NCBI RefSeq assembly: GCF_000427685.1
Contig: NZ_KE386573.1
Coordinates: forward strand, 1,906,938-1,970,937
DNA: 64,000 nt
Direction of reading: 5' to 3'
From: Haloplanus natans DSM 17983
Lineage (GTDB): Archaea; Halobacteriota; Halobacteria; Halobacteriales; Haloferacaceae
The position numbers and the translations under genes were made by a program. The notes under the pieces were generated by a model, which was given only the letters and a program-made list of their open reading frames with translations, did not search any database and was not told the DNA's origin. This document shows, in pieces, positions 1,831 through 45,428 of this stretch (its first letter is position 1; every line of letters begins with the position of its first letter).

Positions 1831-2859
1831 ATGGACGAAGCCGACGTACGGGAGTTGCTCGGCCGGGTCGAGGATTCGGACCTCGGCGACGACATCGTGT
1901 CGCTCGGACTGGTCAACGGCGTCGATGTCGCCGACGGCGTGGCGAAGGTGTCGCTCGCGCTCGGCGCGCCGTACGCGCCAACCGAAAGCGCCATCGCCGC
2001 GGACGTTCGGGAGGTGCTCACCGAGGCCGGACTGGAGGTCGAACTCACGGCCAAACGGCCGGCGTCGATCCGTGACGACGAGGTGCTGCCCGGAGTGAAA
2101 AACGTCGTCGCCGTCGCCTCCGGGAAAGGTGGCGTTGGCAAGTCGACCGTCGCGGTCAACCTCGCCGCTGGCCTGTCGAAACTCGGCGCGAAGGTTGGGC
2201 TGTTCGACACCGACGTCTACGGGCCGAACGTCCCCCGGATGCTCGACTCCGAGGACCCACCCACGGCGACGGACGACGACACCATCATCCCCCCCGAGCG
2301 CTACGGCGTGAAACTCATCAGCATGGCGTTCATGGTCGGCGAGGACGACCCCGTCATCTGGCGGGGGCCGATGGTCCACCAGGTGCTCACCCAACTCGTC
2401 GAGGACGTGGAGTGGGGCGAACTCGACTACCTGATCCTCGATATGCCGCCGGGAACGGGCGATACGCAGTTGACCATCCTCCAGACGCTCCCGCTCGCCG
2501 GCGCCGTCATCGTCACGACGCCCGAAGAAGTGGCCGTCGACGACGCCCGGAAGGGCATCCGGATGTTCGGCCGCCACGACACGAACGTCCTCGGCCTCGT
2601 CGAGAACATGAGTTCCTTCGTCTGCCCGGACTGTGGCGGCCAACACGACATCTTCGGCTCCGGTGGCGGGCGCGAACTCGCCGAGGCGAACAACCTCCCC
2701 TACCTCGGGGGCGTCCCCCTCGACCCGTCGATCAGAACCGGCGAGGAGCCGATGGTGCTGAAAGAGGACAACCCGACCGCCGACGCCTTCCGCGTCATCA
2801 CCGAAGACGTCGCAAACAACGTCGGCGTCGTCAACCGGCGCCGCGTCTCGAACGACTGA
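1831..2859 (+). CDS. Mrp/NBP35-type Fe-S cluster carrier ATPase (ApbC family)
   Basis: P-loop ATPase of 342 residues that assembles and transfers [4Fe-4S] clusters to target apoproteins. An N-terminal MIP18-like (DUF59) domain (about 1-80) precedes the deviant Walker A motif GKGGVGKST (about residue 95) and the second conserved block DTDVYGPNVPRM. The C-terminal pair CPDC, expected to bridge a cluster in the dimer, is at about residue 271. The frame is open further upstream, but ATG 1831 is preferred: CCTTATGC lies about 28 bases before it and the family N terminus begins here. The TGA stop (2857-2859) is part of the target duplication of a small repeat element inserted right behind it. Confidence 0.92.
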   Translation: MDEADVRELLGRVEDSDLGDDIVSLGLVNGVDVADGVAKVSLALGAPYAPTESAIAADVREVLTEAGLEVELTAKRPASIRDDEVLPGVKNVVAVASGKGGVGKSTVAVNLAAGLSKLGAKVGLFDTDVYGPNVPRMLDSEDPPTATDDDTIIPPERYGVKLISMAFMVGEDDPVIWRGPMVHQVLTQLVEDVEWGELDYLILDMPPGTGDTQLTILQTLPLAGAVIVTTPEEVAVDDARKGIRMFGRHDTNVLGLVENMSSFVCPDCGGQHDIFGSGGGRELAEANNLPYLGGVPLDPSIRTGEEPMVLKEDNPTADAFRVITEDVANNVGVVNRRRVSND

Positions 2860-2933
2860 TAGTGTTTGTCGACCGGCGGGTCGCCGATCCGTTCTGGCGA
2901 CCCACCGGTGAAGACTCACAATAATCAGTATGA
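2857..2933 (+). mobile_element. MITE-like palindromic element, copy A (core 2860-2930)
   Basis: A 71-bp insertion bounded by direct copies of TGA (2857-2859 and 2931-2933). Ends are TAGTGTTTGTC and, on the other strand, TACTGATTATT. Internal arms GACCGGCGGGTCGCC and GGCGACCCACCGGTG (2871-2910) give a strong hairpin. The left TGA is the stop codon of the mrp gene, so the gene is left intact. It is too short to encode a transposase. Other copies are at 24403, 38343 and 44169; a relative is at 59830. The hairpin could also serve as a transcription terminator for mrp. Confidence 0.8.
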
Positions 2934-5438: not shown

Positions 5439-5493
5439 CGCGACCCCCCAGAACCGACAGGCCTTAGCCCGACGCGACTGAACGTGCGGACGC

Positions 5494-5527
5494 GGTGGGA
5501 TGGCAGAGCGGCCTATTGCGCCTGCCT
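5494..5527 (+). repeat. attL: 5' half of tRNA-Ser(TGA), left end of integrated element
   Basis: These 34 bases are identical to bases 1-34 of the intact tRNA-Ser(TGA) at 23644-23677 and stop just before the anticodon. What follows (CCCGATAC...) is not tRNA. This is the chromosomal 5' half left behind when the element recombined in the anticodon loop. It is not a functional tRNA by itself. Confidence 0.92.
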
Positions 5528-23516: not shown

Positions 23517-23643
23517 GATCCGGCGTGTGAGTGGTTTGGAGTCGGTTCAACTCAGGTTCGATGGGTTGAGCGGATTTCATGCTGGATTGACCGATGGATC
23601 GAGATGATCGCCGGACGGCGCAGGGTTACGACCGACAGGTCGT

Positions 23644-23677
23644 GGTGGGATGGCAGAGCGGCCTATTGCGCCTGCCT
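23644..23677 (+). repeat. attR core: bases 1-34 of tRNA-Ser(TGA)
   Basis: Exact copy of 5494-5527. The identity begins at the first tRNA base and ends at U33, one base before the anticodon. DNA to its left is element DNA, so the 5' half of the working tRNA is element-borne and the 3' half is chromosomal. Confidence 0.92.
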
Positions 23678-23727
23678 TGAAAGCAGGTAGCCTCACGGCT
23701 TCCTGGGTTCGAATCCCAGTCCCACCG
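23644..23727 (+). tRNA. tRNA-Ser (anticodon TGA), restored by the element
   Basis: Class II tRNA: acceptor GGTGGGA/TCCCACC, discriminator G 23727, anticodon stem CCTGC/GCAGG around CTTGAAA giving anticodon TGA (UCA codons), a long variable arm and T-loop GGTTCGAATCC. CCA is not encoded. Its 5' 34 bases duplicate 5494-5527. The native upstream sequence was left at 5493, so expression must now use element DNA; GGTTACGA about 20 bases before base 1 is a weak candidate box. Confidence 0.95.
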
Positions 23728-24087: not shown

Positions 24088-24402
24088 ATGGACTGGCCAC
24101 ACGACCCGGACGGCGAGGAGGGAAGCGAGGGCGGCCGCAAGTACGGCCACGCCGTCATCGCGAAGAAGGTGGACGAGGACGAGGATTTCCCCCTCGACGT
24201 CGCGGCGTTCGTCGACGAGTACGGCGACGACCCCGTTCGAATCGACCACGAGACAGTCGTCTCGCTACGGGATATCTTCGAGGGCGTCGACGCCGAGGAG
24301 TTCGCGGACTTCGTCGAGATGCATCGGGCGCTGGGTGAGGCGATGCGGGCGAACGGCTACTGGTTCTACGAGGGTGCCGACGCGTTCGTCGGCGACGCCT
24401 GA
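24088..24402 (+). CDS. DUF5785 family protein
   Basis: A 104-residue haloarchaeal protein: MDWPHDPDGEEGSEGGRKYG, then HAVIAKKVDEDEDFPL and a helical C terminus FVEMHRALGEAMRANGYWFY. It matches my recollection of the haloarchaea-specific DUF5785 family, function unknown. It is acidic and soluble, with no membrane segment. Its TGA stop (24400-24402) is the left target duplication of MITE copy B, which the gene survives intact. Confidence 0.75.
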   Translation: MDWPHDPDGEEGSEGGRKYGHAVIAKKVDEDEDFPLDVAAFVDEYGDDPVRIDHETVVSLRDIFEGVDAEEFADFVEMHRALGEAMRANGYWFYEGADAFVGDA

Positions 24403-24472
24403 TACTGTTCACCGGGGAGTCGCCGGAACGAGTCGACGAATCTTCTGGAATGACTTACAATAATCACTATGA
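24400..24472 (+). mobile_element. MITE-like palindromic element, copy B (core 24403-24469)
   Basis: A 67-bp insertion flanked by TGA (24400-24402, 24470-24472). Ends TACTGTTCACC and, opposite strand, TAGTGATTATTGTAAGTC, the latter nearly identical to the right arms of copies A and D. The inner hairpin is degenerate compared with copies A and C. The left TGA is the stop codon of the DUF5785 gene. It ends about 30 bases before the TATA box of the substrate-binding protein gene. Confidence 0.75.
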
Positions 24473-38339: not shown

Positions 38340-38425
38340 TCATAGTGTTTATTATAAGTCAGTACCGGTGGGTCGCCAAGCCGGTCCGGCGACCCACTGG
38401 TAACCAGTTCCAATAAACACTATCA
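38340..38425 (-). mobile_element. MITE-like palindromic element, copy C (core 38343-38422)
   Basis: The best-preserved copy: 80 bp, perfect 11-bp terminal inverted repeats TAGTGTTTATT/AATAAACACTA, and inner arms TACCGGTGGGTCGCC (38373-) and GGCGACCCACTGGTAACC forming one long hairpin. Flanked by TCA duplications (38340-38342, 38423-38425). The right TCA is, read on the minus strand, the TGA stop of the EamA gene. Confidence 0.85.
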
Positions 38426-42892: not shown

Positions 42893-43047
42893 CGGTGTCG
42901 ACGGCCATCCGCGGCCGTCGCTCTCACCTCCGGGCGAGGATCTCGGGGTCGCATTGGGGGGAGGTGCCCGGCGACGGCTATCAACCTTGCCATCGTCCCC
43001 AACGCCGATGAGTTAGACTTTCGGTCGTGGACCACCCACTCCGTTCC

Positions 43048-43860
43048 ATGCAGGTCCATACGGTCGGTGAGGGGACCCCCGAGGTAGCGGTCGTCGGCGC
43101 GGTCCACGGGGACGAACCCTGTGGCGCGCGCGCTATCGAGCGCTTTCTCGCGTCCGATCCCGAAGTCGACCGCCCCGCGAAGCTGATTATCGCCAACGAA
43201 CGCGCCCTCGAACGGGGCGTCCGGTACATCGAGACGGATCTGAACCGGGCGCTCCCCGGCGACCCCGAGAGCGACCTGTACGAGGAACGGCTCGCACACG
43301 ACCTGGCGACCGAAGTCGAGGGCTGTCTCTCGCTCGGTATCCACTCGACCGTCTCCTACGACGAGGCCTTCGCCAACGTGGCGTATCTGAACGAGCGCAA
43401 ACGCGAGATTGCGGCCCACCTCCCCGTCACCGGCATCGTCGATTTCACCGCCGTCTCCGACGGCCGGTCGGTCGAACTCCCCGGTTTCGTCGACATCGAG
43501 GCCGGCTATCAGGGGAGCGAAGCGGCCGTCGACAACGCCTACGACTGTATCGTCGCGTTCCTGCAGACGACGGGCGTCCTTCCCGGCGACCCCCCGGCAC
43601 AGGACCCCGGCTTCTACGAGGTGAGCGAGGCGCTATACAAGGAACCCGGACGGGAGTACGAGTTCCGCGGCGAGAACTTCGAACGCGTCGACGCCGGGGA
43701 GGTCTTCGCCACCGTCGACGGCGAGCCACTGACCGCGGACGAGGCGTTCTGGCCCGTCCTCATGTCCAGCCACGGCCACGACGTGTTGCTCGGCTACCGC
43801 TCGACCTACCACGGTCCCTTCTCGTCGGTGCCGGCGGCGAGCGTCGACGCCGACGACTAG
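43048..43860 (+). CDS. AstE/AspA-type zinc deacylase
   Basis: A 270-residue member of the succinylglutamate desuccinylase/aspartoacylase family. The zinc motif GAVHGDEPCG (His and Glu ligands) is near residue 18, ETDLNRALPG follows, and the third ligand His is in SLGIHSTVS. It would hydrolyse an acyl-amino acid; the substrate is unknown. GTG 43027 would add seven residues. ATG 43048 fits the family's short N terminus. It converges with the kptA gene; their stop codons share the palindrome CTAG (43857-43860). Confidence 0.88.
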   Translation: MQVHTVGEGTPEVAVVGAVHGDEPCGARAIERFLASDPEVDRPAKLIIANERALERGVRYIETDLNRALPGDPESDLYEERLAHDLATEVEGCLSLGIHSTVSYDEAFANVAYLNERKREIAAHLPVTGIVDFTAVSDGRSVELPGFVDIEAGYQGSEAAVDNAYDCIVAFLQTTGVLPGDPPAQDPGFYEVSEALYKEPGREYEFRGENFERVDAGEVFATVDGEPLTADEAFWPVLMSSHGHDVLLGYRSTYHGPFSSVPAASVDADD

Positions 43861-44527
43861 TCCTCGACGAGCCGTAGATACGTCGAGGGCACCCGATCGA
43901 CCGTGTACGTCTCCTGCCCACGCTTCGTGAGTCGGTACGCCTCCGAGAGCGACGCCGCGTCGACGGCAAACACCACGGGGTCGTCCCCGTCGGTGTGGCG
44001 CCGTCCGACCGCCTCGGCGTCGGCGACGGACGCCGACAGATGCACCTGCTGGCGCCCCATCGGTTTCAGCCCCGCACGCTCGATGGCGTCGGCGTTCCCG
44101 GGTGCGGTGCCGTGGTACAGTTCGTCGGGCACCGGTGCGTCGGTTGGTTCGAGGGTCACGTCGACTGATGGTGTTTATTCGAACTGGTTACCGGTAGATC
44201 GCTGGACCCTCTTGGCGACCCACCGGTACTGACTTACAACTATGAGTGGCCGTAGGCGGCGCGGACGCGAGCGTCACTCCCGTCGCCCTCGTCCGCCCAC
44301 GGATACCGACCGGTCGCCACGGCGACGAAGTCGGTCCACGGAGTCCATCCCGACTCGTCGAGCGAGAGGCCGGCGTCCCCGGGGAAATGCCGAAGCGCAC
44401 CGCTCAGGAATTTCGAGAGGCGGGTTCGGCGTTCGGCCGTCAGGACGGCGTCGTCGACGGCGCCACAGTCGGGACAGGCACCGGCGACGACGCCGTGATC
44501 CGGACAGCGACGAACGGGATGAGTCAC
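43857..44527 (-). pseudogene. kptA: RNA 2'-phosphotransferase KptA/Tpt1, split by a MITE
   Basis: KptA transfers an RNA 2'-phosphate to NAD+. The N-terminal lobe (GTG 44527 to TAG 44240, 95 aa) has a zinc ribbon (CPDH...CPDC), [15 protein letters not shown] with the catalytic Arg-His, and RVRAAYGHS. Copy D of the MITE follows, and the C-terminal lobe continues in frame with VDVTLEPTDAPVPDELYHGT, PMGRQQVHLSASVAD to TAG 43857. Removing the element and one TCA restores a normal ORF. A GTG at 44159 could start the C lobe alone, so a two-piece enzyme is conceivable but unlikely. Confidence 0.88.
44166..44245 (+). mobile_element. MITE-like palindromic element, copy D (core 44169-44242), in kptA
   Basis: A 74-bp insertion flanked by TGA (44166-44168, 44243-44245; TCA on the coding strand). 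Left end TGGTGTTTATTCGAACTGGTT matches the right arm of copy C; the right end, opposite strand TAGTTGTAAGTCAGTACCGG, matches the left arm of copy C with about eight bases missing. It brings an in-frame TAG into kptA. The clean before/after comparison in a conserved gene proves this repeat family is mobile. Confidence 0.88.
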
Positions 44528-44558: not shown

Positions 44559-45428
44559 CTACAGGAAGCCTTCGATGTGGTCGGCGACTTCCTCGGGCGT
44601 GTCACCGACGGGGACGCCCGCGTTGTTGAGCGCCTCGATCTTGCTTTCGGCCGTGCCCGTACCGCTCCCGGAGACGATGGCGCCGGCGTGGCCCATGCGC
44701 TTGCCCGGCGGGGCGGTCCGGCCGGCGATGAAGCCGGCGACGGGCGTGTCCATCTCGGTGGCGATGAAGTCCGCCGCGTCCTCCTCGTCCTCGCCGCCGA
44801 TTTCGCCGCACATGGCGACCGCTTCGGTCTCCGGATCGGCTTCGAAGAGTTCGAGAGCGTCGATGAAGGAGGTGCCGATGATGGGGTCGCCGCCGATGCC
44901 GATGGCGGTCGTCTGCCCGATACCACGCTGGGTCAGGTTGTCGACCACCTGGTAGGTGAGCGTGCCCGACCGGGAGACGAGGCCCACGTTACCCGACGAG
45001 AAGATGTTGCCCGGCAGGATGCCGAGTTTCGCCTCGCCGGGCGTGATGACGCCGGGGCAGTTCGGTCCGACGAGATACGTGTCCGTCTCCCGGAGCCGCC
45101 GGTTCACCGTCGTCATGTCCTGGGTCGGGATGCCCTCGGTGATGGCGACGACGAGGTCGAGCGACGTATCGAGCGCCTCGAAGAGGGCGTCGGCGGCGAA
45201 CGCGGGCGGCACGAAGACGACGGAGGCGTCCGCGTCCTCGCGGCGGACCGCCTCGTGGACCGTATCGTAGACGGGGACGCCGTGGACCTCCTGACCCCCT
45301 TTGCCCGGCACCGCGCCGGCGACGACGTTCGTCCCGTACTCGATCATCTGTTCGGCGTGGAAGTTGCCCTCGCCGCCGGTGATGCCCTGGACGACGACGC
45401 GGGTATCCTCGTCGACGAGTACGCTCAT
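44559..45428 (-). CDS. sucD: succinate-CoA ligase (ADP-forming), alpha subunit
   Basis: A 289-residue TCA-cycle enzyme subunit. The N-terminal CoA-binding Rossmann motif ([18 protein letters not shown]) and the phosphorylated active-site His near [19 protein letters not shown] are present. It forms a heterodimer with SucC, making ATP from succinyl-CoA. ATG 45428 overlaps the sucC stop (ATGA). Length is normal. Confidence 0.95.

Follow-up and report, generated by a model that had tools for sequence, protein, structure and literature searches.

The 64,000-nucleotide stretch of DNA analysed here (the window, G000:C7:1906938-1970937) comes from a 3.80-Mb haloarchaeal genome. Its minus strand carries kptA, the gene for RNA 2′-phosphotransferase (PF01885), at 44527..43857, and a 74-nt hairpin element interrupts this gene after Gly-His-Ser. 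The locus contains the following features, given in the direction of kptA.

44559..45428, minus strand: sucD (succinyl-CoA ligase alpha subunit), upstream neighbour of kptA, conserved in the genus (Pfam, synteny)
44243..44527, minus strand: kptA N fragment, 285 nt, with a GTG start at 44527 (PF01885 match 2-38 of 177; congener alignment)
44243..44245, minus strand: first TCA copy of a 3-bp target-site duplication, counted in the N part
44169..44242, minus strand: hairpin element copy D, MITE-like, 74 nt (aligned with 24 other copies; fold z −2.98)
44166..44168, minus strand: second TCA copy of the target-site duplication (sequence layout)
43857..44165, minus strand: kptA C fragment, 309 nt, beginning VDVTLEP (PF01885 match 95-159 of 177)
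43027..43860, plus strand: AstE/AspA-like gene, the conserved neighbour opposite sucD, convergent with kptA (PF24827, synteny)

The N fragment encodes a CxxH/CxxC N terminus, a motif with the Arg-His of the catalytic tetrad and, at its 3′ end, RVRAAYGHS; its open frame closes at the first codon of the element, which reads TAG in the kptA frame (44242-44240). The C fragment is the NAD+ lobe, with LYHGT, in which the HGT motif is intact, and GRQQVHLS, which holds the fourth tetrad Arg. A preliminary description of this DNA had placed the element between YGHS and VDVT with an in-frame TAG, and both the layout and the PF01885 matches on the two pieces confirm this. It had also proposed that deletion of the element plus one TCA would restore the frame, and this is the case: the two together make up 77 nt, the exact interruption of the frame, and the flanks of 285 and 309 nt, each a multiple of 3, join as GHS|VDV. 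A functional KptA has both lobes in one reading frame; here an in-frame TAG and a frame shift lie between them. The last stop ahead of VDVT in the C frame is a TAA within the element, so the sole possible start for the C lobe is the GTG at 44159. A search of the whole genome found no second kptA, and the two partial pieces were the only matches to PF01885.

The gene carries a second lesion. In the protein alignment with congeners (for example, G002), the N fragment lacks around 14 residues including TDPKGRFE, and the nucleotide alignment has a clean gap of ~42 nt in the N part.

44284..44290, minus strand: approximate breakpoint of an in-frame deletion of ~42 nt (protein and DNA alignments with congeners)

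We compared the fragments with 22 intact haloarchaeal KptAs from relatives (21 aligned and a 22nd read separately), which were collected by Pfam profile and not by the TDPKGRFE motif. All 22 contain TDxKxRFE, which is missing here. In CthTpt1, the RNA lobe spans residues 1-85 and the NAD+ lobe 86-182; the RNA lobe contributes Arg18, His19 and Arg68 to the essential tetrad, and its Lys66 contacts the transferred phosphate (PMC6333775). The Lys-x-Arg spacing, together with alignment to solved archaeal enzymes (DPKGRYE), assigns Lys66 and Arg68 to the block lost here. Both lobes of the Tpt1/KptA family (PF01885) therefore remain recognisable, with the Arg-His and the C-lobe Arg kept, whereas the block with the third Arg of the Arg-His-Arg-Arg tetrad is lost and the frame is broken by the element. 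The preliminary description had expected three of the four catalytic residues on the N fragment; it has two, and the fourth is on the C piece. As the TDPKGRFE block is deleted, kptA would be damaged even without the element, and a normal enzyme could be regained neither by trans-complementation nor by splicing.

These observations bear on whether KptA could be restored by removal of the element, either from the mRNA through a bulge-helix-bulge cut by the archaeal splicing endonuclease or by precise excision from the DNA. Haloarchaea possess a splicing endonuclease, and omission of 77 nt rejoins the frame exactly. However, minimum-energy and centroid predictions for the element with short exon flanks show no bulge-helix-bulge helix across the junction, and the rejoined product would still lack TDPKGRFE; we regard restoration by either route as extremely unlikely.

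kptA has a patchy distribution, being present in 25 of 79 relatives. Within the genus the gene lies between sucD and the AstE-like gene, and it is intact and element-free at this locus in G002, G005, G008, G009 and G011. G003 has a shredded, disordered remnant downstream of sucD (L068), with pieces of the N terminus and C lobe only; G001 has a possible kptA stub (GTGACCGACCCCGCCCGG...); and kptA is absent from G006, G007 and G010. The assembly of G004 is fragmented and shows a different neighbour. About half of the congeners have no intact kptA. At the target codon, congeners read TCC, not TCA, so we infer the exact pre-insertion site of copy D. In two more distant haloarchaea, G018 (L055/L057) and G055 (L056/L058), kptA appears in two pieces in different frames, and this element is not at the break; these cases may be additional independent losses or may reflect sequencing errors.

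An interruption conserved in relatives would be the mark of a true split gene, in which each lobe is translated on its own (the C lobe from the GTG at 44159) and the two assemble into an active KptA. In line with such an arrangement, the insertion falls near the boundary of the two lobes as defined in CthTpt1 (1-85 / 86-182, PMC6333775), and both frames are open and constrained on their own branch. Yet no relative examined has the element at the kptA site or shares the interruption with this genome, the conserved block with the third catalytic Arg is gone from the N lobe, and the C lobe could start only at an internal GTG that lies in a conserved strand; a split enzyme is thus very improbable. 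The preliminary description had asked whether the organism survives without KptA or translates the C lobe from this GTG. The deletion of TDPKGRFE speaks against the second option, and the first is favoured by the presence of kptA in only 25 of 79 relatives and the lack of a second copy.

Both parts of kptA have pairwise dN/dS values of 0.19-0.33 against congeners, similar to those of intact pairs. In a codon model custom-written for the analysis, omega on the gene’s own branch was 0.11 compared with a background of 0.09 (2ΔlnL 0.21), and an omega of 1 on that branch was rejected (2ΔlnL 22.5). The best estimate for a neutral tail on the own branch was ~0.007 substitutions per base, with a rough upper limit of ~0.06, and both pieces are otherwise open, with no clear excess of amino-acid changes. 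kptA was under selection until recently, and because constraint extends along nearly the whole lineage, its loss is recent. The divergence of copy D dates the insertion poorly, as part of it may be standing variation within the family; this copy has lost 6 nt from one terminal arm, and at least 10 of its positions differ from the nearest sampled copy.

The C lobe alone, an ADP-ribosyltransferase-fold domain, might have been retained as a new protein with another role. Its own-branch omega (0.14, clearly below 1) and its intact HGT motif favour retention, but a neutral tail of 0.03 per base fits the C part equally well as none, the constraint may predate the insertion, and a stand-alone C lobe was found at the kptA locus in none of the relatives. 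We consider a new role for this lobe very unlikely. By far the best account is that kptA is a recently dead gene with two lesions, the ~42-nt deletion and the MITE-like insertion. Set against this account, the deletion is in frame and both pieces are otherwise open, and at the power of the selection tests they may yet give separate products.

The interrupting element belongs to a family of non-coding sequences of ~80 bp with terminal inverted repeats (TAGTGTTTATT.../...AATAAACACTA). The element ends are TAGTGTTTATTGTAA.../...TTACAATAAACACTA, and the full length is 80 bp, or 86 in all with the 3-bp duplications. The best-preserved copies form a near-complete end-to-end hairpin (fold z about −8). 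The end motif has 7 matches in the window compared with 0.64 expected, and the structure is therefore not a chance hairpin. Copy D matches the R1 covariance model at G000:C7:1951103-1951182. Over both strands of this genome, the covariance model gave at least 150 matches, at roughly 100 distinct sites or more; it also detected the element in 11 of 11 congeners and few or none in other genera. Three further copies in the window are listed without strand.

2857..2933: element copy A with flanking TGA copies (end-motif match; empty site in congeners)
24399..24472: element copy B, degenerate (end-motif match; empty site in congeners)
38340..38425: element copy C, the best preserved in the window, TCA/TCA (empty site in congeners)

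All four window copies (A-D) are absent from congeners wherever the syntenic flanks are alignable, an insertion polymorphism of the kind shown by MITEs; the site of copy D is empty in G002, G005, G008 and G009. Matching 3-mers flank 28 of 33 distinct copies, compared with 2% by chance; the 33 were selected by a pattern that fixes TNA on one side, and the match on the other side is free of that selection. All of the 28 duplications are TNA (26 TCA/TGA, 1 TTA and 1 TAA), which gives a target-site duplication of fixed length (3 bp), as expected of a MITE, and a C stands ahead of the duplication in 41 of 56 half-sites. The empty sites and the duplications bear out the mobility that the preliminary description had claimed. 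In these features the element behaves as a MITE.

The locus is known from the assembly alone, and both lesions might in principle be assembly or sequencing artefacts. This is exceedingly improbable: copy D has a sequence of its own within the family and is flanked by a perfect 3-bp duplication, the deletion has clean edges and keeps the frame, and the assembly reaches 99.8% completeness in 8 contigs.

This genome has 10 DDE_Tnp_1 loci, all without matching element ends. Truncated single ends (L008, L009 and L011) were considered as traces of an autonomous partner and rejected, as no element-like structure there has a second matching end. Two copies that lie 1.7 kb apart in G002 and G005 were likewise rejected as a transposon, as they flank ordinary genes in a shared segment. 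This segment of several kb (L131, G005:C3:213000-222000; L132, G002:C2:2165500-2174500) is ~89-92% identical between the two genomes, lies on differently sized replicons and carries the same two element copies, both on TGA stop codons. At another locus (L001; G000:C1:178584-178669 and following), an ISH4-like IS1595 insertion sequence lies immediately next to an element copy. No Rfam family matched the element, the window’s three Rfam matches being tRNAs, and the literature searched yielded no published description of the element family or its sequence motif.

Among known haloarchaeal elements, those described in Haloquadratum walsbyi (PMC3119063) are likewise short and non-coding, with terminal inverted repeats, target duplication, many copies and cases of gene inactivation. 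The present family differs in being much shorter (~80 bp), in forming a palindrome over nearly its whole length, in having no cognate transposon found in the genome, and in its TNA duplication at a C|TNA|G target, often on TGA stops. The SMR elements of Haloquadratum (HqIRS41, 80 bp) resemble it in size, inverted repeats and lack of an assigned transposase, but are reported to make no target duplication (PMC3119063), whereas a 3-bp duplication is present here. PATE elements of Haloquadratum have neither terminal inverted repeats nor target duplication; the present element has both. A TNA duplication of 3 bp between a C and a G is also known from PHIS-type (IS5/PIF-Harbinger-related) targets, for example that of NuwaII (C|TNA|G; PMC4482050), although NuwaII is eukaryotic and no transposase of the PHIS group is tied to the element here.

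Many copies sit on stop codons. For the 33 copies scored (loci L001-L030 and L073-L102 of G000), in 19 cases the duplicated TGA closes an open frame that is 100 codons long or longer, compared with a background of 173 of the 1,493 TGA triplets in the window (11.6%; p about 3 × 10−10). The duplication rebuilds the TGA stop, so insertions at stop codons are harmless; survivorship, target choice or a useful 3′-end function may each account for the bias. The palindrome also begins with TAG on either strand. Conceivably, the element settles on TGA stops as a portable stop or 3′-end module, perhaps terminating transcription or stabilising the mRNA, with the kptA copy as a gene-breaking exception; we hold this reading to be rather doubtful. 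Copy D does not sit on a TGA stop: it lies inside the coding region, in keeping with a gene that was open to loss.

On the preferred reading of kptA as a recently dead gene, kptA was already dispensable in the genus when an in-frame deletion in this lineage removed a catalytic block of ~42 nt. Before or after that deletion, the ~80-bp MITE-like element entered kptA, where the target had the form C|TCA|G; a transposase with 3-bp TNA target duplications presumably supplied the movement in trans. Translation then stops after the N lobe, at the first codon of the element (TAG), and the C-lobe frame is shifted. The organism probably lacks KptA activity and appears to survive without it. The event itself, a MITE insertion into a dispensable gene, is an ordinary one; the comparative record that accompanies it is unusually full.

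The locus catches kptA in the course of being lost: intact, shredded and absent versions occur at one position in sister species, and the stages of loss can be read directly within an archaeal genus. For a small haloarchaeal family of mobile elements, the boundaries, the duplication and the target are now defined. The case is also a warning that broken genes can be misread as functional split enzymes unless their catalytic residues are checked. Elsewhere in the window, a 40-nt direct repeat, 95% identical, occurs at 5488-5527 and 23638-23677, and a tRNA gene (23644-23727) begins within its second copy.
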